From: Sutcliffiella horikoshii
Lineage (GTDB): Bacteria; Bacillota; Bacilli; Bacillales; Bacillaceae_I
Direction of reading: 5' to 3'
Assembly (NCBI RefSeq): GCF_019931755.1
Contig: NZ_CP082918.1
Location: 3,266,001 to 3,330,000, forward strand
Length of the DNA stretch: 64,000 nucleotides
Shown: piece by piece, positions 8,723 through 60,359 of the stretch
Layout of the letters: the number at the start of each line of letters is the position of its first letter
Position numbering within the stretch: position 1 is the stretch's first letter
Made by a program: the position numbers and the translations under genes
The notes under the pieces: model-generated
Told to the model about the DNA's origin: nothing
What the model saw: the letters and a program-made list of their open reading frames with translations, nothing else
Databases searched by the model: none

Positions 8723-8908
8723 GTTGATCTTCGTTGCAGGAGCTTCGCTTTCCGCGGGCGGGTCCGGAAGCCTCCTCGGGCTACGCCCTGCGGGGTCTTC
8801 CCTGTCCCTTCCTCCCGCAGGACAAGGAAGGCTTCGGCAGCGATTCATCGCACGAAGAAAATGCGCTAGCATTTTTGAGGAGTCTCCGCTCCTTCCACTA
8901 CGATCAAC
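8723..8908 (+). repeat. Imperfect-palindrome repeat, copy A (subfamily I)
   Basis: 186-bp element with ends GTTGATC/GATCAAC. It carries the shared core GCTTCGCTTTCCGCGGG, the inner helix GGAAG/CTTCC (where other copies have TTGAG/CTCAA), the apical hairpin GGGC-TAC-GCCC, CTCCCGCAGGA, and GGAGTCT near the right end. It is longer than the other copies because of an extra segment (about 8820-8885). With cre it fills the 8495-8923 gap; no gene is seen there. Confidence 0.85.
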
Positions 8909-8923
8909 TAGGTTATCCTATTA

Positions 8924-9919
8924 CTATTTATTCTTTTTCTGCTCAGAAAACCAGTGGTTGATTTGGCCCATGATTTTTTCCATTGCCTGCATGTTGGAGA
9001 AGCTTGGCAGGTTTACTAATAGAGCTTCTTTGGGAGGTTCAACGCCTATTCCTTTTTTCTGCAGAACAAGGATGCTTTTTGCATGATTTTTGTTTTGGAA
9101 CATGGTTTCCGGAAGCTGAAGCATTCCTTGAATATACGCTTCATCCTTTATTAGAGCGTTGACTCTTTTTGCTTCCTCTTCTTCAAACATAGAGTTTGGA
9201 ACCAAGAATAACAGATGTCCTCCTGGTTTTGTGTAACGCAACCCTTGTTCGATGAAAAGATAATGTGCATAGGAATGTCCTTCTTCCGCTTTTAGCTTGA
9301 AGTTGGTTGCATTGTTGTCGTCAGGATAATAGCCAACCGGCAGATCACTCACTACCACATCGACTGGTTCTACAAATAGGTTGCTTAAGCCATCTTGGTT
9401 GAATAAACTGATTGCCTGCTCTTGCAGGTTGGCGTTATTATAAGCAAGTTTCACTAAAAGGTCATCCACATCCACACCAAACGCCTCCAGCTTTTTATTA
9501 GGCTGGTGGTTAAGGACAGCTGTAAGAAGGTTTCCAGTACCGATAGCAGGATCAAGCATAGTCAGCTGTTGCAGATGTGAGGTGTATTTTCCAACGAGGT
9601 ATCCCATAAACATGGCGATCGCATCTGGAGTCATTTGATGGTTGGCTTGAACTGCATCTTTCATTCCTTTTAAGATTGCAAGCTGAAATCCTTTTCTGAT
9701 TTCTTCTTTCTGTAGGGAAGAGATCGTTTGTTTGCTGTACTCTTTTTCAAGTCTTCGTTTAGTTACTTCAGACACTTCTTCTTGGATCACTGCTCCGTGG
9801 AAGAGATTTTCTGCGGTTTCTGCAAGTGCCTCTAAGTATGTACAGTCTAGTTCTTCTTGTAGGATTTGTGCTGTTGTATCAAATAAAGTAAATGTATTTT
9901 CTAATTTCGTAATGGACAT
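8924..9919 (-). CDS. ytxK: YtxK: class I SAM-dependent methyltransferase of the N6-DNA-methylase type
   Basis: 331 residues. The SAM-binding motif LDPAIGTGNLLTAVLNH is clear, and the region upstream (ANHQMTPDAIAMFMGYLVGKY) resembles HsdM/N6-adenine methylases. The motif IV position reads SDLPVGYYP instead of NPPY/F, which is characteristic of this ytxK branch and leaves the substrate open. No restriction gene is nearby. Start ATG behind AAAGGAGTGG. Sits between tpx and ackA as in B. subtilis; no separate terminator precedes repeat copy A downstream. Confidence 0.9.
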   Translation of the reverse strand: MSITKLENTFTLFDTTAQILQEELDCTYLEALAETAENLFHGAVIQEEVSEVTKRRLEKEYSKQTISSLQKEEIRKGFQLAILKGMKDAVQANHQMTPDAIAMFMGYLVGKYTSHLQQLTMLDPAIGTGNLLTAVLNHQPNKKLEAFGVDVDDLLVKLAYNNANLQEQAISLFNQDGLSNLFVEPVDVVVSDLPVGYYPDDNNATNFKLKAEEGHSYAHYLFIEQGLRYTKPGGHLLFLVPNSMFEEEEAKRVNALIKDEAYIQGMLQLPETMFQNKNHAKSILVLQKKGIGVEPPKEALLVNLPSFSNMQAMEKIMGQINHWFSEQKKNK

Positions 9920-9979
9920 TATGCCACTCCTTTTCTTTCTCCAATTTTCAGTATTCCTATTTTACATGGAGATGGGGCA

Positions 9980-10013
9980 AAAATAAAGCAGACTGCTATT
10001 ATCACAGTCTGCT
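9980..10013 (-). terminator. Terminator of tpx
   Basis: AGCAGACTG and CAGTCTGCT make a 9-bp stem; on the minus strand it is followed by TTATTTTT. Confidence 0.85.
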
Positions 10014-10043
10014 CGTCTTGGTGCAATGGGGTTGAGTAAGGTA

Positions 10044-10544
10044 TTATTCTGCAGATTTTACTGCTTCAATCGCCGCTTCATAGTTAGGGTGGTCAGTACC
10101 TTCCCCTACGTATTCTACGTATGTTACTTTGTCGTTGGAGTCCACAACAAACGTAGAGCGTGCTAGTAGACGCAGCTCTTGCATTAATACGCCATATGCT
10201 TCACCGAAAGAAGCATCACGGTGGTCAGATACTACCTCAACATTATCAAGTCCACTAGCTGCACACCAGCGTTTTTGAGCGAAAGGCAAGTCCATGCTTA
10301 CTGTAATAACTTTTACGTTATCAAGCTTCGCTGCCTCTTCGTTAAATTTGCGAGTTTGTTGATCGCATACTCCTGTATCAATGGAAGGAACTACGCTGAT
10401 TAGTTTCTTGAATCCTTTGTAGTTTTCCAATGTTACTGGAGATAGGTCATTTGCAAGAACAGAGAAGTTTGGAGCCTGGTCGCCCACTTTCACTTCGCTT
10501 CCGATTAGTGTCATTGGGTTGCCTTTAAATGTTACGTTTGCCAT
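10044..10544 (-). CDS. tpx: Thiol peroxidase Tpx
   Basis: Atypical 2-Cys peroxiredoxin reducing hydroperoxides with thioredoxin. 166 residues; peroxidatic Cys60 in VPSIDTGVC and resolving Cys94 in KRWCAASGL have the normal spacing. The frame extends 6 codons upstream, but ATG at 10544 has GGAGGGAAATT just before it and gives the usual [10 protein letters not shown] start. Single gene with terminator; a tandem array (10684-10848) lies upstream, beyond the likely promoter. Confidence 0.97.
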
Positions 10545-10683
10545 GTTAATTTCCCTCCTCAAATTGTATGTACACTTGTAATAATAGCTATGTTTTGGAA
10601 GTTTTGCAATTAATCAAACTTTGTTGTTATGGTGGGGGAAGTGGCGGCTTCCTTCCATGATCAAAGTTTGTCGAAGTGTGTAG

Positions 10684-10848
10684 ATTTCTTGATATATCTT
10701 CGTTTTTCTTGATATATTGCAAAATTTCTCGATATCCACTCGGAATTTCTTGATATATCGCAAAATTTATTGATATCCGCCCGAAATTCTTGATATCCCC
10801 GCAAAATTTCTTGGAATCCACCCGAATTTCATAGTTTCCACCTACCTC
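10684..10848. repeat. Degenerate tandem array of 20-21 bp units (array 1)
   Basis: About eight units starting TTTCTTGATAT. Two unit types alternate, one continuing ATCGCAAAA and one CCACCCGAA; the last units decay. The array lies in the 351-bp gap between tpx and ytfJ. Spurious reading frames cross it, but there is no ribosome-binding site. Confidence 0.9.
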
Positions 10849-10860
10849 CACCCCATGCCA

Positions 10861-10890
10861 AATAAAAAAGCCAACTGCAGTGCAGCCGGC
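10861..10890 (-). terminator. Terminator of ytfJ
   Basis: GCCAACTGCA and TGCAGCCGGC pair; on the minus strand six T follow. Confidence 0.85.
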
Positions 10891-10895
10891 GATTT

Positions 10896-11375
10896 TTAGA
10901 AGTCCAAATCCTGCTTATGGTCATTGTAGGAATGATCAGAGTGATTCGCTCTGTTATGCTTGTTGTTATTCAACATATGTTGCACTTTCTCGACCGCCTG
11001 TGGAGCCAAGTCCAGTAGTCTTTCATAGATACTTGTGCTTTCATCAAGATGTAGCATTTTCACTCCTTGTGAATTGACAATCAAGAAGGCGATTGGAGTG
11101 ATGGACACGCCACCTCCACTACCTCCACCAAACGGCAGCTTATGCCCTTGGCTTTGGTGATTGCCACCGCCATCGTGTTTCTCAGGTCCTGATGCACTCC
11201 CGCCTTGGAACTCACTTCCTCCTGCCGCAAACCCAAAGCCGACTTTAGAAACAGTCAAAATGACACTCCCATCCGGCGTTTCTACCGGATCACCAATGAT
11301 CGTGTTAACATCAATCATATCTTTTAGATTTTCCATAGCTGTTGTCATGAGACTCTTAATTGGATGTTCAGACAT
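10896..11375 (-). CDS. ytfJ: GerW/YtfJ sporulation protein
   Basis: 159 residues of the GerW (YtfJ) family, forespore-made in B. subtilis and needed for normal germination with some germinants. Family features: MSEHPIKSLMTTAMENLKDMIDVNTIIGDP at the N-terminus, the glycine-rich block VSKVGFGFAAGGSEF, and a second Gly-rich stretch (PFGGGSGGGVSITPIAFLIVN). No signal peptide. ATG behind AAGGAGGATC. It is 20 bp downstream of ytfI, so probably translated from the same message, and ends at its own terminator. Confidence 0.93.
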   Translation of the reverse strand: MSEHPIKSLMTTAMENLKDMIDVNTIIGDPVETPDGSVILTVSKVGFGFAAGGSEFQGGSASGPEKHDGGGNHQSQGHKLPFGGGSGGGVSITPIAFLIVNSQGVKMLHLDESTSIYERLLDLAPQAVEKVQHMLNNNKHNRANHSDHSYNDHKQDLDF

Positions 11376-11395
11376 ATTGATCCTCCTTATTGCTG

Positions 11396-12097
11396 TTACA
11401 TGGATTTGTGATTGTCCTCTTTGGACAACACGGATAAAGGACGGGTTTTAAACTTAGGTCTACCGCCCTTCCAATATTTAACGATTCTTATTCCTGCCAA
11501 CATAGCATGCCCGATTCGAAACCGAATAATACACTTAAACATTGTCTGAGAGACAGCTTGCTGGAAAAAAGGTGTGATGGAGAGTTCCGGCCGAGCTCGG
11601 AAATCTGTATAATTGCTTATAAACCCAACAATTCCCCCTTTAATAGACCAACCTGCCCCAACAAACATTCCAGTATGGGCTGCATCCCCAAGTCCTATGT
11701 TGCTATGCCATTCCAGGTGTTTCACTTCCATTCTCGAAAGCAATCTCCTAACTATCTCATGCATCCCCACAACATGACGCACCAGTTCATATGTATCTTC
11801 AAAACTCTGCCATATCTCTTTTGGAGAAAAATCTTTCTCTTTTTGTTTCCCTTTAGACGGATCTCCGCCTCCAACCTTGGTTTTTTCCTCGACATGAATG
11901 GATGCTGTGTCTGTGTCCACACTGATCAACGGGACATCGATGGTGTACCGCAACAACCCGTACCATGCACTAAGCTTCACTGTCATCTGATCATTATCTT
12001 GTTGATGATGGTAATAAAAATGGATGGTAATTCTAGTGACGAGAACCATGATTAAGAGAAGAATTATGATGGCAACGATAACGGCGGTCCAAATCAC
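11396..12097 (-). CDS. ytfI: YtfI: DUF2953 membrane-anchored protein
   Basis: 233 residues with one N-terminal hydrophobic segment (IWTAVIVAIIILLLIMVLVT) then a basic/hydrophilic domain matching DUF2953, including the near-C-terminal RIGHAMLAGIRIVKYW. Function unknown; it is paired with ytfJ in many endospore formers, so a sporulation role is inferred. The frame opens at GTG 12139, but that start lies inside the yteJ terminator; GTG at 12097, with AAAGGA nine bases upstream and the membrane segment directly after it, is preferred. Confidence 0.85.
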   Translation of the reverse strand: MIWTAVIVAIIILLLIMVLVTRITIHFYYHHQQDNDQMTVKLSAWYGLLRYTIDVPLISVDTDTASIHVEEKTKVGGGDPSKGKQKEKDFSPKEIWQSFEDTYELVRHVVGMHEIVRRLLSRMEVKHLEWHSNIGLGDAAHTGMFVGAGWSIKGGIVGFISNYTDFRARPELSITPFFQQAVSQTMFKCIIRFRIGHAMLAGIRIVKYWKGGRPKFKTRPLSVLSKEDNHKSM

Positions 12098-12140
12098 ACT
12101 TTCACATCCTTTCTTCCCCCTTCCATTATCTCCTAGCACA

Positions 12141-12178
12141 AAAAAAATAAACCTAAAGTCACGAAGGACTTCAGGTTT
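12141..12178 (-). terminator. Terminator of sppA-yteJ
   Basis: AAACCTAAAGTC and GACTTCAGGTTT pair; on the minus strand a run of T with one A follows. It separates yteJ from ytfI. Confidence 0.9.
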
Positions 12179-12183
12179 ACTAC

Positions 12184-12729
12184 TTATTTTTCATGAACCA
12201 CGGTTGTGTCTGCAATAAAGTCGTGCACGCCTTGCTTTTTGCTCGTGAAGGCCGCAACAAGAAATACGATATAAGTGATAGGAGCATAGACTAACGCAAT
12301 ATAACGCCCGACACCTTCTCTAAAGAGAATCGTTTTCCATGAAAGGTCATTAGCTTTAAGATCTACCACTCGCAAACCAAACACCATCTTACCCAATGTC
12401 TGTTTGAAATACTTCGTCATAAGAATGAAATACCCATATAGCACAATGGTTGTGGCAATGGTTGCAGGTGAGAACATGAAGCTTTGACTAGTGGATATCC
12501 CTAATAGTCTAAAAATCGGAAATATCACGATAGCTCCGATGCTCCAGATGATTAATAGATCCAATAAAAATGCCCAAAGTCTCATCCAAAACCCTGCATA
12601 GCGATATTCGGTGACCGCTACTTCCTTCGTAGAAAACATCATATCATTGCTTGTTCTGTCTTCCGCTACGTTCACGTCTTCATGTATTACGTTTTCGTTT
12701 GTATACTCATTATTCTGCTCATCTCTCAT
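12184..12729 (-). CDS. yteJ: YteJ: RDD-family membrane protein
   Basis: 181 residues with a charged N-terminal 45 residues and three hydrophobic segments (about 55-75, 85-105, 150-165). The RDD hallmark Arg-Asp-Asp positions correspond here to FWMRLWAFLLDLLIIW, with the second half KQTLGKMVFGLRVVD. Function unknown at molecular level; in B. subtilis the gene is paired with sppA and YteJ inhibits the SppA peptidase in lantibiotic resistance. The 12-bp gap to sppA and a shared terminator indicate one operon. Confidence 0.92.
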   Translation of the reverse strand: MRDEQNNEYTNENVIHEDVNVAEDRTSNDMMFSTKEVAVTEYRYAGFWMRLWAFLLDLLIIWSIGAIVIFPIFRLLGISTSQSFMFSPATIATTIVLYGYFILMTKYFKQTLGKMVFGLRVVDLKANDLSWKTILFREGVGRYIALVYAPITYIVFLVAAFTSKKQGVHDFIADTTVVHEK

Positions 12730-12741
12730 TTTATCTCCCTC

Positions 12742-13752
12742 CTACTCTGCATACAAGTACATTAGTCTTGGAGAATTAGGTTGATTGATAAGCTTTGCTA
12801 ACATCTGCATTTCAGATTCTGGCTTTAATAGGGATTGAACATTCATGCTGAATAAGGAACCCCAGCCCAGGTTTTCTGTGTATTGAACCACTTGGACGTT
12901 ACCCATATCATGGTCTTTCTTCATTGCCTCAATAACATCCTCAAAATACCCCAGCTCGTCGACTATGTTAATGTCCTTGGCTTGTTGGCCGTCATAGATT
13001 CTTCCGTCAGCAATTCTTCTGACTTCTGATTCACTCATGCCCCGGCCTTCCACAATAACTTCTACAAATTGATCATACATATTGTCTACCATTGATTGAA
13101 GTATTTGACGCTCTTCATCAGACATGTCTTTCGTTGGGGACATAATATCTTTATAAGGTCCACTCTTGATGGTATCGAATTTCACGCCATACTTTTCAGC
13201 AAGCTCACTGTAATTAATCCCCTGCATGATGACACCGATAGAACCAGTGATCGTCTCAGGTGCTGCGAAAATTTTGTTTGCAGGTGCTGCTATATAGTAT
13301 CCACCTGAAGCAGCCATCGTTCCCATGGAAATGTATATCGGTTTTTCTGTTTCTTCTTTAATTTCCACCAGTCTCTTATGTATCTCGGCACTTTCAGATA
13401 CACCGCCACCTGGTGTATTTACACGCACGATAATTCCTTGAACAGAATCATCCTCTTTTGCTTGATCAAGCATTCTTAAAAATTGTCGATGGTTATATCC
13501 GGGAGATTGGAATACAGATGTTACATCGCTTCCTGTGTCCTGAATAACACCGTTAACTTCTAGAACTAGAATCTTACGGTTTGGACTACCGTCTTCAATT
13601 ACTTCCTCAATAAACTCTTCTTCCCCGCCAAAAATATCTGAAAAAGAATCAGATGTGGAGCTTTCCGCAGGTTTTGTTGCCAGACTTGTAATAATCGACA
13701 CAAAAAATAATAATGCCGCAATGCCTAATGCGGCCCAACGCTTTCCACTCAT
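12742..13752 (-). CDS. sppA: Signal peptide peptidase SppA
   Basis: Membrane-anchored Ser/Lys protease that degrades cleaved signal peptides. 336 residues: one N-terminal transmembrane segment (WAALGIAALLFFVSIITSLA), then the S49 domain with GTMAASGGYYIAAPANKIFA (catalytic Ser in ASGGYY) and the Lys-bearing KFDTIKSGPYKDI. Length fits the single-domain Gram-positive SppA. ATG behind TAGGAGG. First gene of the sppA-yteJ operon, divergent from the NAD kinase gene. Confidence 0.96.
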   Translation of the reverse strand: MSGKRWAALGIAALLFFVSIITSLATKPAESSTSDSFSDIFGGEEEFIEEVIEDGSPNRKILVLEVNGVIQDTGSDVTSVFQSPGYNHRQFLRMLDQAKEDDSVQGIIVRVNTPGGGVSESAEIHKRLVEIKEETEKPIYISMGTMAASGGYYIAAPANKIFAAPETITGSIGVIMQGINYSELAEKYGVKFDTIKSGPYKDIMSPTKDMSDEERQILQSMVDNMYDQFVEVIVEGRGMSESEVRRIADGRIYDGQQAKDINIVDELGYFEDVIEAMKKDHDMGNVQVVQYTENLGWGSLFSMNVQSLLKPESEMQMLAKLINQPNSPRLMYLYAE

Positions 13753-13929
13753 ATCTAAACCTCCTAGTTGTTCGTACAGTACCTATACGTTAAATCGTTT
13801 CAAAAAGTTTCATCAAAATGGTAAACTTATCACAATATAGAATTGTACTAAAATTTTTTCCAAAAGGATAATGTTTTTGGATATTTTTTGTTTAAGTTCC
13901 ATTTTTTATTATAAAGAGGAGGAAAAACA

Positions 13930-14730
13930 ATGACAGAACGCCGTAAAATATTTTTCTTTTATAAAAGGGAAGAAGAGCTTGTTGCAAAGGTGGAAAAACT
14001 GGAACAATTAGCGGTACAAAATAATTTTGAAATATTAAGTGATCACCACAATGCCAATATTATCGTAGCAGTCGGAGGAGATGGCACATTCCTACAGGCT
14101 GTTCAGAAAACAGGTTTCAAGGATGATTGCCTTTATGCAGGGATCAATGCTGGAGAAACTTCTAGCTTTTATTGCGACTTTCATATCGATGATACAGAAA
14201 AAATGGTCGAAGCGATGACGTTTGAACAAATTGAGGTAAGAAAATATCCTACCATTGAAGTAACGATTGACGGCATTTCTTCTTTTCAATGTTTGAATGA
14301 GTGCTCCATCCGCTCTGCCATCATAAAAACCTTTGCGATAGATGTCTACATAGATGATCTGCACTTTGAAACATTCCGTGGGGATGGGATGATTGTATCC
14401 ACCCCGACTGGTAGCACTGCATACAATAAGTCAGTTCAGGGTGCTGTGGTAGATCCGATGCTTCCTTGCTTTCAGGTAAGTGAACTTGCTTCCATTAACA
14501 ATAACAGCTACCGTACCCTTGGTTCACCTTTTATTATGGCTGGTTCTAGGAAGCTGACTTTGAAAGTAATTCAGGATGGAAATGATTATCCAACGATTGG
14601 TATTGATAACGAGGCTCTTAGCATCAAGCATGTGGAGCGGTTGGATATTCAGCTGACAGATAAGAAAATTAAGACTGTGAAGTTGAAGGATAATTCGTTT
14701 TGGGAGAAGGTCAAACGGACATTTTTATAA
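13930..14730 (+). CDS. ppnKB: NAD kinase, second Bacillus type (PpnKB/NadF-like)
   Basis: ATP- or polyphosphate-dependent phosphorylation of NAD to NADP. 266 residues with the diacylglycerol/NAD-kinase motif VAVGGDGTFLQA near residue 42 and the second motif FRGDGMIVSTPTGSTAYNKS. Position between sppA and ytcJ agrees with the B. subtilis ytdI locus. AGAGGAGG lies about 8 bases before ATG. Single gene with a hairpin terminator 20 bp after its stop. Confidence 0.95.
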   Translation: MTERRKIFFFYKREEELVAKVEKLEQLAVQNNFEILSDHHNANIIVAVGGDGTFLQAVQKTGFKDDCLYAGINAGETSSFYCDFHIDDTEKMVEAMTFEQIEVRKYPTIEVTIDGISSFQCLNECSIRSAIIKTFAIDVYIDDLHFETFRGDGMIVSTPTGSTAYNKSVQGAVVDPMLPCFQVSELASINNNSYRTLGSPFIMAGSRKLTLKVIQDGNDYPTIGIDNEALSIKHVERLDIQLTDKKIKTVKLKDNSFWEKVKRTFL

Positions 14731-14749
14731 AGTCCCCACTTTCATAACT

Positions 14750-14781
14750 AAAGGACACCGCATGAACGCGGTGTCCTTTTT
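14750..14781 (+). terminator. Terminator of the NAD kinase gene
   Basis: AAAGGACACCGC and GCGGTGTCCTTT are a perfect 12-bp stem followed by TTGT. Repeat copy B starts 18 bp further on. Confidence 0.92.
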
Positions 14782-14798
14782 GTATTCTGTATAACTCC

Positions 14799-14926
14799 GC
14801 TGTTGATTTCCGCAAATGGCTTCGCTTTCCGCGGGGCGACCTTGAGCCTCCTCACTTCGTTGCGGGGTCTCAACAATGTCGCTACTTCCCCCGCTGGAGT
14901 CTACGCCATTTGCTCCAATCACCAGC
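14799..14926 (+). repeat. Imperfect-palindrome repeat, copy B (subfamily II)
   Basis: 128 bp. From outside inward the arms pair GCTGTTGATT/AATCACCAGC (one mismatch), GCAAATGGC/GCCATTTGC, GCGGG/CCCGC, GCGAC/GTCGC and TTGAG/CTCAA, separated by a TCC/TCC internal loop, the conserved loop TTCGCTTTCC/TGGAGTCTAC, and a 6-7 base bulge on the right arm. Lies between convergent nadK and ytcJ. Confidence 0.92.
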
Positions 14927-14953
14927 TATAAATCATCATTTACTGTGGCTTTC

Positions 14954-16546
14954 TTAATTTCTTTGATATACTATCGTACCGTCGACGATTGTCATTTGTA
15001 CGTTTGTTTCTAGGATAGCATCTTCGGTTGCTTTAAAAAGGTCGGTATCCAGCACTGTGAAGTCTGCGTAGTAGCCTGTATCGATGATTCCTTGTTTATG
15101 TTCTTCGGAGATAGCTTGGGCGCTGCCTTTGGTGAAGAGTCCGATTGCCTCATACATGGTAAGACGTTGTTCTGGTTGATAGACCGTTTTGTTTGTATCC
15201 CCAGGGGTTTGCCTAGTAACAGCAGCGTGAATGCCTAGCAGCGGGTCAACCGGCTCGATAGGAGCATCGGATCCGCCTGCACATATCAGTCCTTCATCCA
15301 TTAGCGTTTTCCAAGCATACGAATAGTTCAGCCTTTCTTCTCCAAGGCGTTCGATTATCCACGGAAAGTCGGTTGCCACAAATCGCGGTTGGATATCTAG
15401 TATAAGCGGCAGCTTTTTGGCGCGATCAATAAGATCCTTAGTTAATATTTGAGCATGGATGAGCCTGTCTCTTTCCCCTTTTGGAGCAGGATATTTTTCA
15501 AGGGCATCAATCATATACTCAAACGCAAGATCGCCAATTGTATGGACTGCAACCGTCATTCCGTATTCTCTTGCTTTTTTTACTAGGCCATCAAGCTGTT
15601 CTTGTGTATGAATGGCCACCCCGGATGTTTCAGGCGCATCATTATAAGGTCGACTTAAAAGAGCGGTCCTTCCACCGAGTGCTCCATCAGCAAAGATCTT
15701 CATGGCACCAAGGGTTATGAAGCCTGTTGTCTCCTTAAATGTATGTCCCTCTTCATGCATATCATCCACTACTTCATGATGAACAAGTAAATGGGCACGA
15801 TATTTTAAATGATCCCTTTCAATCACATTTTCAAATGCTCCAAATGTTTTCGTAAAACTGCCATAATAGCTCAGGTCTTCGCTATGACTCCCTACCAAAC
15901 CAAGGCTCAGGCAATCTTCAATAGAAGTTTTCAAAGCATGATACAAGTAGCTCTCACTCGCTTTTGGAATCTTCTTTTTTACTAATTCCTGTGCTTGGTC
16001 AAGTAAGTATCCAGTCGGTTCCCCATCGATATCTTTTATAATGACGCCTCCAGGAGGGTTTTCTGTTTCTTTTGTAATGCCGGCAAGCTCCAAAGCTTTA
16101 CTGTTGACTAGTACTGCATGGCGACAAACTCTTGACAGGATCATGGGGTGATTCGATGTAATTTCGTCGAGCTCTGTTCTGTGAAAAATTTTTCGGTCGA
16201 CAAAGTTATTCTCATTCCAGCCTTCCCCGAAAATCCATTCTCCTTCAGGGGTTTCTTTTACTTTTCTAATTAATGCATGTTTCACATCTTGGGGTGATGT
16301 GTAATTTGATAAATCCAGTCGCAGTAATTTTTCTCCGTGCCCAATCAGGTGCATATGACTGTCTGTAAAACCTGGGTACATGACTGCCCCTTGTAAATCT
16401 TGCTTTTGTGCATTCGGATATGTAGAGAAAAGGTTTTCTTGAGGGCCGATGTCTTTAATGATTCCATCTTCCGTATAAACAGCTTCGACTTTTTCCATTT
16501 CTGCTTTCATTGTATAGATTGTTCCGCCGTACCAAATTTCTCCCAT
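14954..16546 (-). CDS. ytcJ: YtcJ: amidohydrolase family protein
   Basis: 530-residue metal-dependent amidohydrolase (TIM-barrel plus small beta domain). The first metal motif reads FTDSHMHLIGHG near residue 62, then VAVHTIGDLAF and the late CAGGSDAPIEPVDPLLGI supply further ligands. This YtcJ/ExoI-like group hydrolyses amide or ring bonds of unknown substrates. No signal peptide, so cytosolic. ATG with GAAGGAGAAAG upstream. The gene stands alone; its 3' side faces repeat copy B and no U-tract hairpin of its own is obvious. Confidence 0.9.
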   Translation of the reverse strand: MGEIWYGGTIYTMKAEMEKVEAVYTEDGIIKDIGPQENLFSTYPNAQKQDLQGAVMYPGFTDSHMHLIGHGEKLLRLDLSNYTSPQDVKHALIRKVKETPEGEWIFGEGWNENNFVDRKIFHRTELDEITSNHPMILSRVCRHAVLVNSKALELAGITKETENPPGGVIIKDIDGEPTGYLLDQAQELVKKKIPKASESYLYHALKTSIEDCLSLGLVGSHSEDLSYYGSFTKTFGAFENVIERDHLKYRAHLLVHHEVVDDMHEEGHTFKETTGFITLGAMKIFADGALGGRTALLSRPYNDAPETSGVAIHTQEQLDGLVKKAREYGMTVAVHTIGDLAFEYMIDALEKYPAPKGERDRLIHAQILTKDLIDRAKKLPLILDIQPRFVATDFPWIIERLGEERLNYSYAWKTLMDEGLICAGGSDAPIEPVDPLLGIHAAVTRQTPGDTNKTVYQPEQRLTMYEAIGLFTKGSAQAISEEHKQGIIDTGYYADFTVLDTDLFKATEDAILETNVQMTIVDGTIVYQRN

Positions 16547-16619
16547 GGTGATCTTTCTCCTTCTTTTTGTAAAATTACATTTAGATTATCATTTGTGAAG
16601 GTCAGGCACAAAAAAATTG

Positions 16620-16681
16620 CATTAAAAAAGGCAGTATAGGTGGAGTCAAGGAATCTGATCCCCACCAGCCTGCCTTTCCTT
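16620..16681 (-). terminator. Probable terminator of ytcI
   Basis: AAAGGCAG and CTGCCTTT at the ends and GGTGG/CCACC inside form a long interrupted hairpin; on the minus strand TTTTTTAATG follows. Confidence 0.65.
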
Positions 16682-16694
16682 TGTAGTATCTTTA

Positions 16695-18402: not shown

Positions 18403-18413
18403 CCTAACATCAT

Positions 18414-25955: not shown

Positions 25956-26190
25956 GTTGATCTGAGCGGAAGGCGCGAAGACTCCTTGAAAATGATGATT
26001 TCGAGCTGTGGATTGGAGCAAAAGGCGAAGACTCCAGCGGGGGAGTAGCGACAATGTTGAGACCCCGCAGGGCGTAGCCCGAGGAGGCTCAAGGTCGCCC
26101 CGCGGAAAGCGAAGCCATTTGCGGAAATCAACAGCGGTGTCTAAACGCTATCCGCCCGTGGAAAGCGAAGCGCCTGCAGCGAAGATCAAC
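25956..26190 (-). repeat. Subfamily I repeat interrupted by a subfamily II copy
   Basis: Outer ends GTTGATC (25956-25962) and GATCAAC (26184-26190) and adjoining segments GGAAGGCGCGAAGACTCCT and CCGTGGAAAGCGAAGCG match the minus-strand ends of copy A. The middle of that element is missing and replaced by complete copy C (26004-26135). The composite occupies the whole hisJ/refZ gap, 13 and 15 bp from the two stop codons. Confidence 0.8.
26004..26135 (-). repeat. Imperfect-palindrome repeat, copy C (subfamily II), nested
   Basis: 132 bp, same helix order as copy B: GCTGTTGATT/AATCCACAGC, GCAAATGGC/GCCTTTTGC, GCGGG/CCCGC, GCGAC/GTCGC, TTGAG/CTCAA, with apical hairpin GGGC-TAC-GCCC. Confidence 0.9.
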
Positions 26191-26204
26191 AGTCAGTGGG
26201 AATT

Positions 26205-33011: not shown

Positions 33012-33088
33012 TACTAATCCCTCCTATCCACTATACAACTAAGTTTACCACCAATTTTTTCACGTTAGCTACCCCTGATGCCTTTAAT

Positions 33089-33288
33089 GAGGACTCCTTT
33101 CACTTCATTTCCACGTCACGGATGTCTTCATATCGTCCATGAGGACCTCTCTCACTCCATTTCCACTTCACAGAGGTCTTCATCCCGTCTATGATGACGT
33201 CTCTCACTCCATTTCCACTTCACAGAGGTCTTCATCCCGTCTATGAAGACCACTCTCATCCGTTTCCAACCTCAATAAGGTCTTTACC
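33089..33288. repeat. Tandem array of 52-bp units (array 2)
   Basis: Units start at 33089, 33141, 33193 and 33245, exactly 52 bp apart; the two middle units are almost identical and the outer two more diverged. Each holds GACCTC and, 28 bases later, GAGGTCTTCAT, a potential hairpin. Same family as the array at 53866-54125. Fills the 334-bp gap before tyrS. Confidence 0.92.
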
Positions 33289-33345: not shown

Positions 33346-34620
<1,275 letters not shown>

Positions 34621-34659
34621 TTATGGTTATTGATTAAATAAAATTAAATAGATTTCGCA

Positions 34660-34787
34660 GCTGATGCTCGGAGCAAACGGCGTAGACTCCAGCGGGAGAG
34701 TAGCGACAATGTTGAGACCCCGCAGGCTTGCCGAGGAGGCTCAAGGTCGCCCCGCGGAAAGCGAAGCCATTTGCGGAGAGCATCAGC
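34660..34787 (-). repeat. Imperfect-palindrome repeat, copy D (subfamily II) in the tyrS leader
   Basis: 128 bp. The outer helix GCTGATGCTC/GAGCATCAGC is perfect although its sequence differs from the GCTGTTGATT/AATCAACAGC of its relatives. GCAAATGGC pairs with GCCGTTTGC through one G-T. The apical hairpin is GGC-AA-GCC. It sits 55 bp before the tyrS start, in the sense orientation of the tyrS transcript. Confidence 0.92.
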
Positions 34788-34805
34788 GGTGTTAAGCAGT
34801 AACTA

Positions 34806-35060
34806 AACACAAAAAAACCCATCCCTCCTGTAAAAGAAGGGACGAGTTTATACGCGGTACCACCCTAATTGAAAAGCAACACAAAGCTGCTTTCCCACTC
34901 AAAAATGTAACGGTTCTCACCGTCTCCTGCTACTAAGCCCAAATGCGGCTGTTCCCAAAAGATGCTCGAGGAGGTAATTCATCCAAACAGGTGTACTGAT
35001 TCTCACCAACCATCAGCTCTCTTTAAGCATGCCTATTTGTACTACTTATTCCTGTCTTAG
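34806..35060 (-). promoter_or_regulatory. Tyr T-box riboswitch of tyrS
   Basis: The minus strand carries the T-box antiterminator sequence AGGGTGGTACCGCG (34853-34866), followed by a terminator hairpin (TCCCT/AGGGA with T-run near 34810). Upstream are stem I elements including AGAGAGCTGATGGTTGG and a UAC Tyr codon in the expected specifier region (GAGAATCAGTACACC). Uncharged tRNA-Tyr would favour antitermination. Confidence 0.92.
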
Positions 35061-35164
35061 CGCATTCTATAACTAATCAAAAATTTATATAAAGTCTTTT
35101 TACCATAAAAAAGAGTAACATGTCAACATAAACATGAAGAAAATTTTGGAAGAAAACAAAAAGT

Positions 35165-45993: not shown

Positions 45994-46126
45994 CCCAGTT
46001 TCCTTCCGTTTCAGGTGGTCGCTTTCCGCGGGACGGTGCTTGAGCCTCCTCGGCTTCGCCTGTGGGGTCTCAAGCTACCGTTACTCCCCCGCAGGAGTCT
46101 CCCACCTTACACGCCAGTCAACTGGG
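45994..46126 (+). repeat. Imperfect-palindrome repeat, copy E (subfamily III)
   Basis: 133 bp. Helices: CCCAGTT/AACTGGG, AGGTGG/CCACCT, GCGGG/CCCGC, ACGGT/ACCGT, GCTTGAG/CTCAAGC and apical GGC-TTC-GCC. The conserved internal loop TCGCTTTCC/AGGAGTCTC is 9/9. Between the ccpA terminator and motP. Confidence 0.92.
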
Positions 46127-50863: not shown

Positions 50864-50866
50864 TCC

Positions 50867-51228: not shown

Positions 51229-51276
51229 ATTTCTACACCCTTTTCTGCTTGTTATTAAGAATTGTCTGCTGACACC

Positions 51277-51402
51277 GCTATTGATTTCCGCAAATGGCTT
51301 CGCTTTCCGCGGGGCGACCTTGAGCCTCCTCACTTCGTTGCGGGGTCTCAACATTGCCGCTATCCCCCGCAGGAGTCTTCGCCTTTTGCTCCAATCAACA
51401 GC
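51277..51402 (+). repeat. Imperfect-palindrome repeat, copy F (subfamily II)
   Basis: 126 bp. GCTATTGATT/AATCAACAGC, GCAAATGGC/GCCTTTTGC, GCGGG/CCCGC, GCGAC/GCCGC, TTGAG/CTCAA, loop TTCGCTTTCC/AGGAGTCTTC. Lies between ytxH and ytxJ, 49 bp before the ytxJ start. Confidence 0.92.
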
Positions 51403-51419
51403 TATAAATCTCTCAGGAA

Positions 51420-51460
51420 ATTAAAAACGGCGAAGTTATCATACCACTTCGCCGTTTTAT
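51420..51460 (-). terminator. Terminator of ytxGH
   Basis: AAAACGGCGAAG and CTTCGCCGTTTT pair perfectly over 12 bp; on the minus strand TTTTTAATTTC follows. Confidence 0.9.
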
Positions 51461-51479
51461 TCTCAAGTTATGAGATTGT

Positions 51480-51992: not shown

Positions 51993-52005
51993 TTCCGATT
52001 CCTCC

Positions 52006-52440: not shown

Positions 52441-52478
52441 CGCGACACCTCCTGGCTGCTGACGTACATACTTACTAT

Positions 52479-52503
52479 TTACCCCACATACTACAGTTTA
52501 AAC
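52479..52503 (-). promoter_or_regulatory. Sigma-B-type promoter of ytxGH
   Basis: On the minus strand GTTTAA, 13 bases, GGGTAA, very close to the sigma-B consensus (GTTTAA, 12-14, GGGTAT) and about 40 bp upstream of the ytxG start. B. subtilis ytxGHJ is a known sigma-B and sigma-H operon. Confidence 0.8.
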
Positions 52504-52665
52504 ATTCTATACTCTGTTTTATTCTAGGACAAAAGGAAAATCCCTTCAAAAATTAAAAGAAATTTAAAAAATATTACTAATATTTTTAGACAAAAAATTC
52601 AACAAAATACGCGTAATCGGTTACAATAATGATGATACATAACCATTTTCATAGGGGGCAAAACA

Positions 52666-53781: not shown

Positions 53782-53788
53782 GGTATAG

Positions 53789-53828
53789 TTTGAACCATCC
53801 GCAAGTGAATTGTGGGTGGTTTTTTAAT
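53789..53828 (+). terminator. Terminator of ampS
   Basis: AACCATCC and GGGTGGTT pair around 18 bases, followed by TTTTAATT. Confidence 0.75.
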
Positions 53829-53865
53829 TGTTGCGTTAGACATCTTTAATGCTTTGCACCCTATT

Positions 53866-54125
53866 CAAGACCTCTCTCTATCTATTTTTGCGCTACTGAA
53901 GTCTTCATAACTCTTCTCAAGACCTCTCTCTACCCGTTTTCACGCAACTGAAGTCTTCATACCTCTTCTCAAGACCTCTCACTATCCATTTTCACGTAAC
54001 TGAAGTCTTCATACCTCTTTTCAAGACCTCTCTCTACCCGTTTTCACGCTACTGAAGTCTTCATAACCCTTCTCAAGACCTCTCTCTACCCGTTTTCATG
54101 CTACTGAGGTCTTCATTTCCATTCG
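53866..54125. repeat. Tandem array of 52-bp units (array 4)
   Basis: Five units starting CAAGACCTCTC at 53866, 53918, 53970, 54022 and 54074, each exactly 52 bp. Each contains AAGACCTC and, at unit positions 33-40, GAAGTCTT, near-complementary arms. Consensus matches array 2 at about 34 of 52 positions without gaps. Fills the ampS/murC gap with the two terminators. Confidence 0.95.
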
Positions 54126-54129
54126 CCAA

Positions 54130-54172
54130 AATAAAAAACCGGCTTCCCCTCTACCTGAAGGAAAGCCGGTTC
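54130..54172 (-). terminator. Terminator of murC
   Basis: AACCGGCTTCC and GGAAAGCCGGTT pair; on the minus strand TTTTTTATTTT follows. Confidence 0.9.
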
Positions 54173-54184
54173 TTTTATACATTA

Positions 54185-55495
54185 CTATTCCACTTCGTGT
54201 TGAAGGGATTTCTCATATGCTTCTTGGAACTTGGTGACATCACCGGCTCCCATGAAAATAATGACGCTATTCTCATGCTTAGACAACAATGCAGTTCCTT
54301 CTTCTGTCAAAATTTCTGCACGGTCTATTTTCTCGAGCAGATCATTGATTGTGAGCTTCCCTTGATTCTCGCGGGCAGAACCGAAAATATCACATAGGTA
54401 AACATGATCCGCTCCGCTTAAGCTTTCCGCAAATTCATTTAAGAATGTTTGAGTTCTTGTAAAGGTATGCGGTTGAAATACAGCAATCACGTCGCGTTCA
54501 GGATATTTCTGGTTGGCTGCATCAATAGTTGCACGGATCTCCGTTGGGTGATGCGCATAATCATCAATCAATACTTGAGAGCCTATTACTTTTTCGGAAA
54601 ATCTACGTTTAACTCCTTCAAATGTAAGCAACTGGCTTTGAATCACTTCTACAGGTATTTCCTCGTAGTGACATAGCGCGATGACAGCCAAGGAGTTCAT
54701 GATGTTGTGGTCACCATACCCATTGATTTTAAATGTAGCATAATGGTTGTTTCGTACATATACATCAAATGTGGTACCTTCTGTCGACTTTTCCACGTGA
54801 CGTGCTTGAAAATCATTTTCTTCGCCAAAGCCGTAGTAAATCACGGGAACTTTTGCTTGGATTTTTTGCAGATATTCATCATCTCCACAAGCGATGATTC
54901 CCTTTTTCACTTGCATAGCCATCTCCTGGAATGCGGAGAATACATCATCGATACTGCCGAAATAATCCGGGTGATCGAAGTCGATGTTTGTCATGATCGT
55001 GTAATCAGGATAGTAAGACAAGAAGTGTCTCTTGTACTCACATGCTTCAAATACAAAATATTCACTATCTTCTACCCCACGGCCAGTGCCATCTCCAATA
55101 AGATATGAAGTAGGCTTTGCTCCTTGAATGACATGGGAGAGCAATCCAGTTGTAGAAGTCTTTCCGTGTGCTCCCGTAACGGCAATACTGGTGTACTTCT
55201 CCATAAACTGACCCAGGAATTGCGGATAGCGAATAACTGGTATGTTAAGTTCTTTTGCCGCTTCTATCTCCTCATGTGTGTCAGGAAATGCATTACCGGC
55301 AATAACCGTCATATCTTCCTTAATATTGTCCTTATCAAAAGGAAGGATGGCGATCCCTTTTTCTTCGAGACCCTTTTGTGTAAAGAACCTCTTTTCAATA
55401 TCTGAACCTTGTACTTGAAAGTGCATATCGTCCAATATTCCGGCAAGGGCACTCATTCCTGATCCTTTAATACCAACAAAATGATAAATGGTCAT
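54185..55495 (-). CDS. murC: UDP-N-acetylmuramate-L-alanine ligase MurC
   Basis: Adds L-Ala to UDP-MurNAc in the cytosol, the first amino-acid step of peptidoglycan precursor synthesis. 436 residues: UDP-binding [17 protein letters not shown]-loop [14 protein letters not shown] near residue 110, and the C-terminal ligase motifs [15 protein letters not shown] and [13 protein letters not shown] with GGAGGTTTTTTC upstream. In B. subtilis murC also adjoins sftA; here pncB lies between. Confidence 0.98.
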
Positions 55496-55819
55496 GAAAA
55501 AACCTCCAACATTTATCTATATATAATTCGCTTATCTTTCTGCAAACGAACTGAATAATAGTTTTTATTTTTGTACCAAACGTAGTTTTCTCCGCATAGA
55601 TAATCCATTATATGATTAGCGTCTAAAAATGCTAATTCCCTTATTCCCTTAAGTTTAAGGATTCAAACCATATGTAGAAAAGACTTTTCTTAACAACGAC
55701 CTATTATAGCACTAATTCGAAATTTCCTCTACCGTACCGTCATGAATCGGAAATTCATAGGAAAAAACTGATAGATCTTTCTCCTACCAGTTTCTCCATA
55801 AATCACTTACTGCTATACT
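55496..55819. other. Gap murC-pncB: no gene seen
   Basis: 324 bp, AT-rich. It holds the pncB terminator at its right end and presumably the murC promoter at its left (TATAATTCGC near 55524 on the plus strand is in the wrong orientation). The inverted segment CCTTAAGTTTAAGG near 55650 is short. I see no coding potential or riboswitch. Confidence 0.6.
55762..55793 (-). terminator. Probable terminator of pncB
   Basis: Minus strand AAACTGGTAG and CTATCAGTTT pair with one G-T and one mismatch, followed by TTTCCT. Confidence 0.65.
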
Positions 55820-56905
55820 CTAATCCACTTTTTCTAGTCGTTCATTGAAGCGGTATTTTCTTCCGGCTTTCGCTTGAGGTTCCCCGTTTAACACAACGTT
55901 ATCTCCAGTAAAGCCTATATGGATTTTCAGCAGGCTTCCACCCACACCATAAATATCGACCGGCACGTTCTGCTCTTCGAATTCCCTGATGCGTTGCTCA
56001 CTGAAACCACCGCTTACCACAATCTTCACATGTTGGAAACCTTCTTTATCCAATGCTTCACGCAGTGCGAAAACAAGCGGGGCATTTACCCCTCGTGGGT
56101 CAAAGGTTCCCAGTACATCCTGATGGCGGATGAAATGCTGATCGATCATCGTTCTGGATGTATCGACCCGTACTCCCTTCAGCTTATCACCGAATTCTCT
56201 TGCCACTCTCAATGCATCTGTAATGACATCATTGTTATAGTCTACAAGCACCAACAGTTCATCCTCGGGGAACTTCGAATGGTAAGCTTTAGAAGCCTCT
56301 ACAACATCCCCATTGAATAGCTGGATGAGGGCATGCGGCATGGTACCCATCCCTTTTTTCCCCCACCATTCATTCATTGCATGGGTTGCTTGCGCTGTGG
56401 AGCCTCCGATATGCGCGGCATATCCGTCTCCGGCTTGTTGCGTATAATGATCATCACGATCTCCCATGAAAATGACTGGCTTTTGCCCTGCAGCTTTCAC
56501 TACATTATAAACATTCGTAGACACCGACGTTCTTCTGGCCAGAATCCCATCAATTACTCCTTCTAAAAATCCAAAATTCTGATAAGGGCCTGTTATAGTC
56601 ATAACCGTTTCAAACGGCGCAATTTTGTCCCCATCCTTTAAGGAATAAATCTCAAGTGATTCCGGATCATCAGCGAAAGTCTTGATCAATGCAATGACTT
56701 CATCTGTACCGCATAGCACTGCATGATCTTTTTGAAAAAATTGCATCGTCACAATATTATCTGGTTTAAACTCTCTCACGATTTCTCGTGTTTTTAAAAA
56801 ATATACAGCTGAGAACCATCCTTCTTTTACACGCTCGTCAAATTTGAACGTGCGATTGGTCAGCCTTTTAATTTTTCCTTGCAGCTTCAACTCAATTTCT
56901 TTCAT
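55820..56905 (-). CDS. pncB: Nicotinate phosphoribosyltransferase (short form)
   Basis: NAD salvage: nicotinate + PRPP to nicotinate mononucleotide. 361 residues, the compact NAPRTase type rather than the 490-residue B. subtilis YueK type. Core elements include FLEGVIDGILARRTSVSTNVYNV, GDGYAAHIGGSTAQATHAMNEWW, GVRVDTSRTMIDQHF, and the phosphate-binding KIVVSGGFSEQRIREFE with the downstream IYGVGGSLL. ATG with TAAAAGAGG/AGGAG upstream. Inserted between murC and sftA relative to B. subtilis. Confidence 0.9.
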   Translation of the reverse strand: MKEIELKLQGKIKRLTNRTFKFDERVKEGWFSAVYFLKTREIVREFKPDNIVTMQFFQKDHAVLCGTDEVIALIKTFADDPESLEIYSLKDGDKIAPFETVMTITGPYQNFGFLEGVIDGILARRTSVSTNVYNVVKAAGQKPVIFMGDRDDHYTQQAGDGYAAHIGGSTAQATHAMNEWWGKKGMGTMPHALIQLFNGDVVEASKAYHSKFPEDELLVLVDYNNDVITDALRVAREFGDKLKGVRVDTSRTMIDQHFIRHQDVLGTFDPRGVNAPLVFALREALDKEGFQHVKIVVSGGFSEQRIREFEEQNVPVDIYGVGGSLLKIHIGFTGDNVVLNGEPQAKAGRKYRFNERLEKVD

Positions 56906-57034
56906 CCTCTTAAAAGCTCCTTAAGACCCTGTTTTCGGGTTACTGTCTTGCCGGATATGCCGACTCCTATTGTTTACTAGTATTAATAATAATAGAAGAT
57001 TGTATCCATTTACAACAACTTCAGTCAAGGAGCA

Positions 57035-59467
57035 TTAAAAGTCAGAATCTTGCATACTGACAAGCTCCTCCTCTGAAACAAGTACATCTCTTGGTTTACT
57101 ACCCTTTGGACCTGATATCACACCATGAGCCTGCATCATATCAATAAGGCGGGCGGCCCTGTTATAGCCGATACGGAATCTTCTTTGCAAACTGGAAGTG
57201 GATGCCCCATTTTGATCAATTACATATTGGCATGCTTCTATAAAGAGCTCATCTTCCTCTTGTATGGTGCTATCTTTTAGCAATTCGCTTTGTTCAAACA
57301 AATAATTGGGCTTTTGTTCTTTACGTACATGAGCAACCGCTCTCTCTATCTCCTCATCTGATACGAAGTTTCCTTGTACCCTAATCGGTTTCGGAGCGCC
57401 ATTTTCAAGAAGCAGCATATCACCTCGCCCAAGAAGACGCTCGGCCCCTCCGATATCTATGATAGTCCTGGAATCGACTTGAGATGAAACAGAGAAGGCA
57501 ATCCTTGTAGGAATATTAGCCTTAATCAGCCCTGTAATAACATCAACGGAAGGACGCTGAGTGGCAATCAGTAAATGCATCCCGCAGGCACGTGCTTTTT
57601 GGGCAATCCGACAGATTGCTTCCTCTACATCACTTGGAGCAACCATCATCAGGTCGGCCAATTCATCTATGATAATGACCATATATGGCAATGTTTCTTG
57701 GTTATGCTTTTTCGCCGTTTCATTGTATTTTGCAATGTCTCTAACGCCTGCATGAACAAACAACTCATAACGGCGCTCCATCTCTTCCACTGCCCATTTC
57801 AACGCAGCCGTTGCTGCCTTTACATCTGTGATAACCGGGCTTACGAGATGGGGAATATGGTTGTAAGGTGTAAGTTCCACCATTTTTGGATCAATCAATA
57901 AAAGTTTCACTTCATCTGGTGTACTTTTGTACAACAAACTCATAATGATAGAGTTCACACAAACACTTTTTCCGGATCCCGTAGCACCGGCAATCAATCC
58001 GTGCGGCATTTTCTGTAAGTCCAAGACAACAGGTTGACCTGAAATATCCAACCCTAAAGCTACAGTCAAGGGTGAAGTATTTTGTATAAAAGATGGATGT
58101 CGAATAATTTCTCTAATAAATACAGGCTTGCTTACACGATTCGGCACTTCTATTCCAATCGTGTTTTTCCCTGGAATAGGCGCCTCCATACGTATATCCC
58201 GTGCTGACAGACTCAATTTAATGTCATCACTTAAGTTGGTGATTTTGTTTACCTTTACTCCAGGCTCTGGCTGCACTTCAAATTGGGTAACAGATGGCCC
58301 TTGTGTTGCTTTTACCACTTTCGCACCGACCCTGAAATGATGTAAAGTTTCATCCAGCAATTGCTTTTGCGCTTCTACCCAGTCCTGGTCTCCTTGAGAA
58401 TGCTGTGGTGGGATGGCAAGCATTGTAATAGGCGGTTTTCTGTAATACGGTTGCGTCACTTCTTCTTTGGAAGATATTTGCTGTTTTCTTTCTAATGAAC
58501 GTTTATCCTGTTTAAGCATAATGACATTAAACGGTATGTTCTGTTTGGAGGAAGTCTCCTTAGTTCTGTTCACTTCCGTGTTTTGCTTTTCTTTCGGTTT
58601 CTCTATAGGCTCGCTGTACTCTAGAGTTGCTGCGGATTCCTGTTGATAAGCAGTAGCATCTTCTTCAACTTCGTTAACTTCCACAATTTCTTCTTTTTCC
58701 TCAAAAGCTTTTATATCTTCTATTTCTGTTATTTCTTCTATTTCTGTTATTTCTTCTTTTTCATCTTCTTTTACCAATTGTACTTCGTTAATAGCACTGT
58801 CTATCAATGAAGTTATTGGATTTTCGTCTTCCATGATGTCTCCTGAAGAATCATTTTCTTCTTCTATTAACTCATCACTAAAAGCCTGTACCTTTGATTC
58901 ATCTTTGTACGTAATTTCTTCAAAATTTGCACTAGAGTAGCCTTCAAGTGGACTCAGTTCAGCTATTTCATTTGAAATTGATTCTCTACTGAGCAGCTCG
59001 ATCTCAGGTATATATTCTTCTTTCTTTTCCGGAAATGGTCGTGATTTATATCCATAAATCGGGGACACCACTTCAGTAGGATGGAAAGGTTGTTTATTTT
59101 TATTTGTTACTTTTTCAAAGGCTCTAGGCGTGATTTTTTTCTTTGTCGGTTCTTGCTTTTTCACTGGCTCTTCAGTCGCTGCTTTTTCTTGTTCTACTTT
59201 TATAGATTCAGCCTTGGTTTTTTCTGCCGGTTTACTGGGTTGTTGAACTTTTGACTTTTTTCTTTTTTCCTGTCTTGGCTGTTGTTCTTTTTTACCTTCA
59301 TCTGGTATAAGAGGAAAGCGAAATTTCCCTGTAGGATACTGATAAGCGACTTTTGCTGTTAGTTGTTTTTGCTTATTTTCCGGTTTCTTAGCGTAATCTT
59401 GCTCAATGGTTCTTTCTTCCTCGTCACTTAGCTGAGCAAACAGCTTTTTAAACCAGTTCACATTCAT
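57035..59467 (-). CDS. sftA: SftA: septum-associated FtsK-like DNA translocase
   Basis: Moves chromosome DNA away from the closing septum. 810 residues: charged linker (about 30-390) full of Lys/Glu with a repeated [12 protein letters not shown] segment near 220-240; then the FtsK motor with Walker [13 protein letters not shown] (about residue 495), Walker B LLLIDPKM and [16 protein letters not shown]-terminal winged-helix gamma domain ([23 protein letters not shown]). No membrane helices at the N-terminus, which separates SftA (YtpS/YtpT) from SpoIIIE. The GTG at 59470 is followed by ATG 59467, taken as start. Confidence 0.95.
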
Positions 59468-59514
59468 CACACTCTTTCTTTGTTGTTCGTAACCTGCTTT
59501 TTAACAGGTTCAGT

Positions 59515-59545
59515 AGGCAAAAAACCACTAGAGAGCATCTAGTGG
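59515..59545 (-). terminator. Terminator of ytpR
   Basis: CCACTAGA and TCTAGTGG form a perfect 8-bp stem, followed on the minus strand by TTTTTTGCC. Separates ytpR from sftA. Confidence 0.88.
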
Positions 59546-59569
59546 TGAAAAATAAAAGGCATCTCGGAA

Positions 59570-60187
59570 TTAACTTAAAAACGGTTGTCCCGCTTCATAT
59601 TTTCCAGCTTCTAAAACAAGGATGCCTTTTTCAGCCGGTGCGTCGGGAAGATCGAGTTCTTTCGCCGAACAAATCATTCCTGAGGATGCAACGCCTCTCA
59701 GTTCTGCATCTTTAATGACAAGTCCGCTAGGCATCACTGCTCCGACCTTTGCCACTACGACATATTGCCCGCTATCCACATTGGGGGCACCACAAACAAT
59801 CTGAAGTACTTCTGTCCCTACATCCACTTTACATACGCTTAGTTTGTCTGCATTTGGGTGTTTCTCCTTTTCCGTCACATGTCCTACGACAAATTTGGGG
59901 CTGAGGTCGGGATTAAGTGTTTCCTTTACACCATTTTCGTTCAACGCTTTATTAAGTTCTGCAATCAGGTCTTCTGTCAGGTTAACTGGGCCTTTGAAGT
60001 CGTTGACTGCTACATATTTGGATGCATTGAAAAGGTTGTATCCTGCTATTTCTTTTGTTTCTTTATCTATAATCTTCGCAATGTCTCCGGTTTTTTCTAC
60101 CATTCGATTGTTTAAATTGATTTCTTTTATGTAGATTAGTAGTGTGTCGCCTATGCCTTCTTGGTTATAGTACACGTTAATGGTCAT
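59570..60187 (-). CDS. ytpR: YtpR: tRNA-binding-domain protein
   Basis: 205 residues: N-terminal DUF4479 domain (about 1-90) and C-terminal OB-fold tRNA-binding domain like that of PheT and MetRS ([26 protein letters not shown] through [30 protein letters not shown]). Binds tRNA or structured RNA; biological role unknown. ATG with AAGGAAGAAAAAC upstream. In B. subtilis it sits between ytpQ and sftA; here repeat copy G separates it from ytpQ. Confidence 0.93.
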
Positions 60188-60230
60188 GTTTTTCTTCCTT
60201 TCTTATATAAGATAAGAGTAGCTTTGACTT

Positions 60231-60359
60231 CCAGTTTCCTTGCGTTCCAGGTGTTCGCTTTCTGCGGGAAGGTGCTTGAGCCTCCTCACTTCGTTGCGGG
60301 GTCTCAACCAACCTTTTCTCCCCCGCTGGAGTCTCACACCTTGCACTTCAGTCAACTGG
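60231..60359 (+). repeat. Imperfect-palindrome repeat, copy G (subfamily III)
   Basis: 129 bp. CCAGTT/AACTGG, a 12/12 internal loop, AGGTGT/ACACCT, a 9/9 loop TCGCTTTCT/TGGAGTCTC, GCGGG/CCCGC, AAGGT/ACCTT, TTGAG/CTCAA. Lies between ytpR and ytpQ. Confidence 0.93.

Follow-up and report, generated by a model that had tools for sequence, protein, structure and literature searches.

What kind of element leaves seven related hairpins in the intergenic regions of one bacterial chromosome segment, and is it kept as RNA or as DNA? This question is raised by a 64,000-nt stretch of the Sutcliffiella horikoshii genome (contig NZ_CP082918.1, positions 3,266,001 to 3,330,000), hereafter called the window. 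A first-pass annotation had described seven copies, A to G, each folding as one long hairpin whose helices carry compensatory changes. It had proposed that selection acts on a folded single strand, either RNA or the single-stranded DNA substrate of a mobilizing enzyme.

The hairpin copies in the window

All seven copies were found at the positions assigned to them (Table 1), and every one folds as a single long hairpin, at -46.8 to -84.5 kcal/mol in the orientation given. The opposite strand of these copies also folds (-51.5 to -82.2 kcal/mol). A profile built from the seven recovers them, which is partly circular, together with one extra half-copy adjoining copy C. Copy A owes its unusual length to an insert of 59 nt at GGA^GTC. 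In the region 34605-35067, copy D separates a T-box leader (34835-35067, minus strand) from the beginning of a 419-aa gene, presumably for tyrosyl-tRNA synthetase. Copy D sits 23 nt past a T-run and is thus within a transcribed leader. The T-box was the only family found by cmscan of the window. Separately, 52-bp tandem direct repeats occur at 53813-54124 and 33088-33243, and the two places resemble each other.

Table 1. Hairpin copies and adjoining features in the window
Feature	Position	Strand	Evidence
Copy A, T3-type hairpin, long form	8723..8908	+	Sequence, fold, profile
59-nt insert of copy A at GGA^GTC, its end a repeated AGGA	8823..8881	+	Sequence
Intrinsic terminator (stem + T5), 17 nt ahead of copy B	14751..14781	+	Seen in sequence
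Copy B, T1 hairpin	14799..14926	+	Sequence, fold, profile
Left remnant of older A-like (T3) copy hosting C	25956..26003	-	Sequence; A-like copy here in G006, G008
Copy C, T1 hairpin, nested insertion	26004..26135	-	Sequence, fold, profile, congener comparison
Right remnant of older A-like copy	26136..26190	-	Profile match 26150-26192; sequence
Copy D, T1 hairpin, between T-box leader and next gene's start	34660..34787	-	Sequence, profile
Copy E, T2 hairpin	45994..46126	+	Sequence, fold, profile
Copy F, T1 hairpin	51277..51402	+	Sequence, fold, profile
Copy G, T2 hairpin	60231..60359	+	Sequence, fold, profile

Size, types and distribution of the family

The core motif GAGCCTCCTCN{4,20}GGGGTCTC has 257 exact matches in the genome of S. 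horikoshii (142 + 115) and the reversed pattern has none, so that this is a repeat family and not a product of chance. Profile matches number 127 in a systematic sample of 1.624 Mb of this genome (the window plus 78 stretches), and adding the first 55 small loci from the same genome brought the collection to 162 distinct copies, each 90 nt or longer. Matches under 85-90 nt and copies at stretch ends were left out before counting. Types and composites were assigned by word rules, and genes by a simple longest-ORF caller. The copies are mostly intergenic, only five of the 122 in the genome sample being inside an open frame of at least 100 aa.

The element is an imperfect palindrome of about 125-135 bp. 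Its outer arms define the types T1 (copies B, C, D, and F), T1b, T2 (E and G), T3 (A), and T4. Outside single hairpins, sequence conservation falls off at about 8 nt. A T3 and a T1b hairpin facing each other form a composite of about 390 bp in total, with a spacer of mostly 83-94 nt and conserved outer flanks (four of the 57 composites were left out of this spacer and flank comparison). With one mismatch allowed, the T1b arm occurs at 60 places in the genome. By our reading, 7 of the 122 sampled copies are of the long form, interrupted by an insert at GGA^GTC. This form is also seen in 13 loci or copies of other genera, and the insert site recurs among other types of hairpin and in other genera. 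In many genera, as at 8823-8881 of the window, this insert of 55-59 nt contains a conserved small hairpin (GAAAATGCG..CATTTTC). The insert could apparently base-pair with the 5′ arm of its own element, and it may be an optional domain.

The first-pass annotation also mentioned similar words in other Bacillaceae. This is supported, since 93 of the 150 genomes examined from the order, S. horikoshii and five congeners included, contain the exact motif, and the reversed control gave zero in every row. A scan of GTDB species found at least 118 stretches with the motif; of the stretches listed, 114 of 118 also have profile matches, at least 148 in all. Among the matches listed, 76 of 80 titles bear, by our reading, Bacillales genus names, several of them sharing an organism. 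Records titled Spirochaetota, Gemmatimonadales, and Microbacterium (L190, L220, and L235) match the pattern but not the profile. A record titled Pseudomonas sp. ISL-84 (L267) does have a hairpin match; this is perhaps a mislabelled or mixed assembly, because the list also has ISL-55 and ISL-34, both under the name Bacillus. Plasmid matches were found in four records, of Priestia and Niallia, and phages gave no match at the sensitivity used.

Covariation on the folded strand

Compensatory change was confirmed at the scale of the family, in an alignment of 103 copies (64 from loci in named records and 39 from S. horikoshii; the row L126:845-973, a long-form copy cut at its insert, is retained). 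Columns 57:100 hold GC 49, UA 42, CG 5, and AU 1, and columns 60:99 hold UA 67, GC 27, and CG 4. At the same time, GGGGTCTC and GGAGTC are invariant or almost so, and the opposed bases 66:93 are T-G in 103 of 103. Significance was judged by our own script instead of R-scape, from 60 simulations in which substitutions were redistributed over the tree. Pairs 57:100 and 60:99 were unmatched in all 60, and 15:142 has an E of 0.017. These are the only three single pairs to pass E < 0.05, the next two having E values of 0.08 and 0.12. The antidiagonal of the hairpin holds 29 of the 40 strongest covarying pairs (null mean 1.7, maximum 5), the band 157-161 having been picked after the ranking was seen, and some of the 29, such as 16:141, are not Watson-Crick. 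Thus the signal exceeds the phylogenetic background, contrary to the outcome that the annotation had named as refuting, and there is strong support for the fold in its entirety but not for most single pairs. RNAalifold predicts 11 pairs only, a low number that probably reflects shifting of the outer arms between aligned copies. Gene conversion between the arms, which the annotation had named as an alternative cause of the paired variants, is unlikely to act alone, because the opposed unpaired words stay non-complementary and conserved while the helices on either side of them change.

Covarying helices with conserved loops, and the presence of copy D in a transcribed leader, are what would be expected of a structured RNA acting in the stability, processing, or regulation of neighboring mRNAs under host selection. 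We regard this reading as improbable. No Rfam family matched the hairpins at the gathering score, gain and loss are frequent between species, and copies are mostly antisense to genes (33 antisense against 15 sense in other genera; 13 against 1 for T2 in S. horikoshii). The orientation of the composite, furthermore, tracks replication and not genes, as set out below.

Insertion and loss between species

Five congeners (G006, G007, G008, G011, and G013), 87-95% identical over 5 kb, were compared at the sites of the window. The site of copy A is empty in G007 and G011 and filled in G013, G006, and G008. That of copy B is empty in G011, where the terminator stem is likewise present. Copy C is nested within a broken A-like copy, and an A-like copy is present at the same site in G006 and G008. 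Copy D is absent from its site in G013 and G007, reduced to a remnant in G011, and internally deleted in G008, and the site of copy F is empty in G007 and G008. Copy E is present in all five congeners, and copy G in all three with sequence there, being longer in two. From the empty sites, the nesting, and the deletion remnants, the copies can be taken as insertions.

At the cleanest site (G006:52516), AATAA flanks the insert on both sides and occurs once in two empty genomes. At one composite site, A5 stands at either edge of the insert, compared with a single A5 at the empty site, and the remaining sites have no clear pattern. The direct repeats at these two sites fit a double-strand transposase better. 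In G011, at about L187:7200-7360, a whole terminator stem-loop seems to be duplicated around a T3-like insertion.

Could the hairpins then be miniature inverted-repeat elements that depend on a DDE transposase, for instance that of IS1182? Besides the AATAA repeat, an IS1182 element carries a T1 hairpin, as do miniature versions with its ends. However, IS1182-type ends adjoin only one of the 122 sampled hairpins, and single hairpins have no flank conservation beyond about 8 nt. IS1182 was therefore rejected as the general mover, and a DDE origin of the family is judged unlikely. IS1182 elements do use the hairpins: in G013 (L021-L025), copies with a T1 hairpin upstream of the transposase gene are inserted in hairpin tips at all five places fetched, and mini-IS1182 versions were found in further tips. 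A carrier version of the element with its own gene was also sought inside interrupted hairpins; the 14 interrupted pairs (reach 4.5 kb) contain no gene beyond IS1182, and consist of five IS1182, six mini-IS (two of them nested in one hairpin), and three other short inserts.

Terminators and replication forks

The composite has a defined position. In 50 of 57 composites, the 110 nt preceding the T3 end contain an intrinsic terminator, a stem followed by a T-run, that reads towards T3, against 3 with shuffled flanks (own scripts, blocks of two bases). The distance from the end of the T-run to the hairpin is 15-30 nt in 49 of 49 detected. Since the terminator stems vary from site to site, they look like targets and not like parts of the unit. 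Single hairpins have such a terminator less often: 15 of 44 for T1 (shuffled 2), 3 of 15 for T2 (1), and 5 of 16 for T3 (0). In named records, a terminator that reads towards the hairpin from its 3′ side was detected for 30 of 86 single copies (6 with shuffling). Placement behind terminators could be partly due to selection.

The composite also has a defined polarity. GC skew of the S. horikoshii genome switches sign near 2.06 Mb, and 52 of 57 composites are oriented with fork movement (P 6e-11). Agreement is 26/26 among co-directional leading-strand genes, 21/25 at convergent sites, 4/4 among co-directional lagging-strand genes, 0/1 at a divergent site, and 1/1 at a stretch end; at convergent, divergent, and lagging sites alone, it is 25/30 (P 3e-4). 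Genome-wide hand counts of arms gave 54 of 60 fork-agreeing places for T1b and 28 of 33 for T2. With the terminus assumed, agreement in G013 is 60/64 for T1b and 22/27 for T2, and in G015 it is 21/30 for T2 and 5/7 for T1b (the last a hand count).

Single hairpins show the terminator and orientation pattern less or not at all. Single T1 hairpins are divided 19:9 overall (convergent 6:3, divergent 2:2) and single T3 hairpins 6:6. T2 is biased 14:2, yet almost always among leading-strand genes, so that gene direction may account for its bias. In other genera, after 19 paired copies were left out, single copies are divided 43:25 overall and 11:10 at convergent or divergent sites. Thus fork control of orientation is shown for the composite only. 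The first-pass interpretation stands in part: selection keeps the pairing of a folded strand across genera, and for the composite a DNA substrate is favored over RNA because orientation follows replication and not transcription, but no mobilizing enzyme could be tied to the family.

Group IIC intron machinery might move the elements, as it likewise targets terminator stem-loops and uses lagging strands (PMC10190682 and PMC7923331). The S. horikoshii genome has nine maturase-domain matches (at 616093, 956803, 1577315, 2415514, 2922231, 3573610, and others); five with equal scores are on the plus strand before and the minus strand after about 2.06 Mb, as fork-oriented introns should be. However, such matches are absent from G006, G008, and G011, in whose stretches composite-like facing pairs occur, and the window contains no group II RNA above the Rfam threshold. 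The machinery was thus rejected as a necessary partner, and a role as mover is very improbable.

Facing pairs and lagging strands also recall REP/REPIN-like elements moved by a single-copy Y1 (RAYT-like) transposase, the composite then being a giant REPIN. One Y1 gene was found in S. horikoshii (77.5 bits against the NCBI REP-associated transposase model, whose cut-off is 80) and one or two in each of ten congeners, and Y1 enzymes work on the lagging-strand template (as stated in part of PMC6006769). Nevertheless, GTAG/GTGG occurs just 5′ of the hairpin foot in only 5 of 324 side tests on 162 copies (shuffled 2), and a hairpin lies near the gene at only 1 of 30 Y1 loci (about 1.5 kb each side where available). 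By tally, the motif is present in 11 of 25 genomes without any Y1 match, one of them with 104 copies, and in 82 of 125 with Y1. The direct repeats at two sites count against Y1 as well. The missing foot and the Y1-less genomes led to rejection of Y1 as a necessary partner, and the REPIN reading as a whole seems rather unlikely.

A replication-coupled, structure-reading element?

None of the three kinds of protein weighed as mover, Y1 (RAYT-like), IS1182, and group II intron proteins, fits well. With moderate confidence, we read the family as non-autonomous mobile DNA elements whose folded strand is what the moving enzyme recognizes, and we place insertion of the composite at replication forks, just behind terminators. 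The enzyme, provided in trans, would rely on helix geometry and on the conserved unpaired words. The terminator hairpin, the T-run, and the fork polarity together suggest that the composite enters the single-stranded lagging-strand template, where the terminator stem-loop and T-run can fold; single hairpins may move likewise, showing it weakly. A wider and more doubtful extension is a replication-coupled class throughout Bacillales, in which the element is read as a folded hairpin, the composite targets a folded terminator with its T-run on the lagging-strand template, and the enzyme belongs to none of the IS types tested. Bacillales Y1 proteins would be one candidate enzyme: part of PMC6006769 describes subclass 2.1 Y1 look-alikes without a known repeat partner, the matching of the Bacillales proteins to these being our own.

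The family makes the spread of enzyme-less palindromes a testable question. The fixed distance of the composite from the terminator and its fork-set orientation point to a mechanism, and the conserved unpaired words to what the enzyme reads, while the hairpins double as landing sites for IS1182 elements.

Comparison with known systems

Searches of the open-access PMC literature with words from the family sequence and with topics found no description of the hairpin family, which is thus a very large Bacillaceae repeat family undescribed within the literature searched. Palindromic repeats of Bacillus include bcr1 of the Bacillus cereus group and Bhal-1 of B. halodurans (74 nt, 36 copies), according to sections of PMC2267715. 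Bhal-1 could be a piece of the present family. The joining of two hairpin types as a composite tied to terminators and replication is new here.

The annotation had likened the architecture to that of ERIC, enterobacterial intergenic palindromes of about 127 bp with one long stem (also from sections of PMC2267715). The likeness holds for intergenic position, the single long stem-loop, and similar length, but not for sequence, as copy B had no match in a distant blastn search of 20,395 E. coli records. The hairpin family differs from ERIC in its conserved unpaired words, in having several types of arm, and in the composites with their link to terminators and to replication. With REP, REPIN, and BIME elements and their RAYT, it shares many intergenic palindromes, facing pairs, and, perhaps, a single-copy Y1 gene in the genus; however, it is about five times longer, has no GTAG/GTGG foot, and occurs in Y1-less genomes. 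IS1182-family elements and their miniatures are linked to it through the T1 hairpin that some carry and the tips that they enter, and rarely as neighbors. Group IIC introns resemble the composite in way of working only, through the terminator stem-loop target and the lagging strand; unlike group II introns, the hairpins are short and have no reading frame. Integron attC sites are recombined as a folded strand with unpaired recognition bases, and the hairpin family, likewise in way of working only, combines a folded strand with conserved unpaired words.
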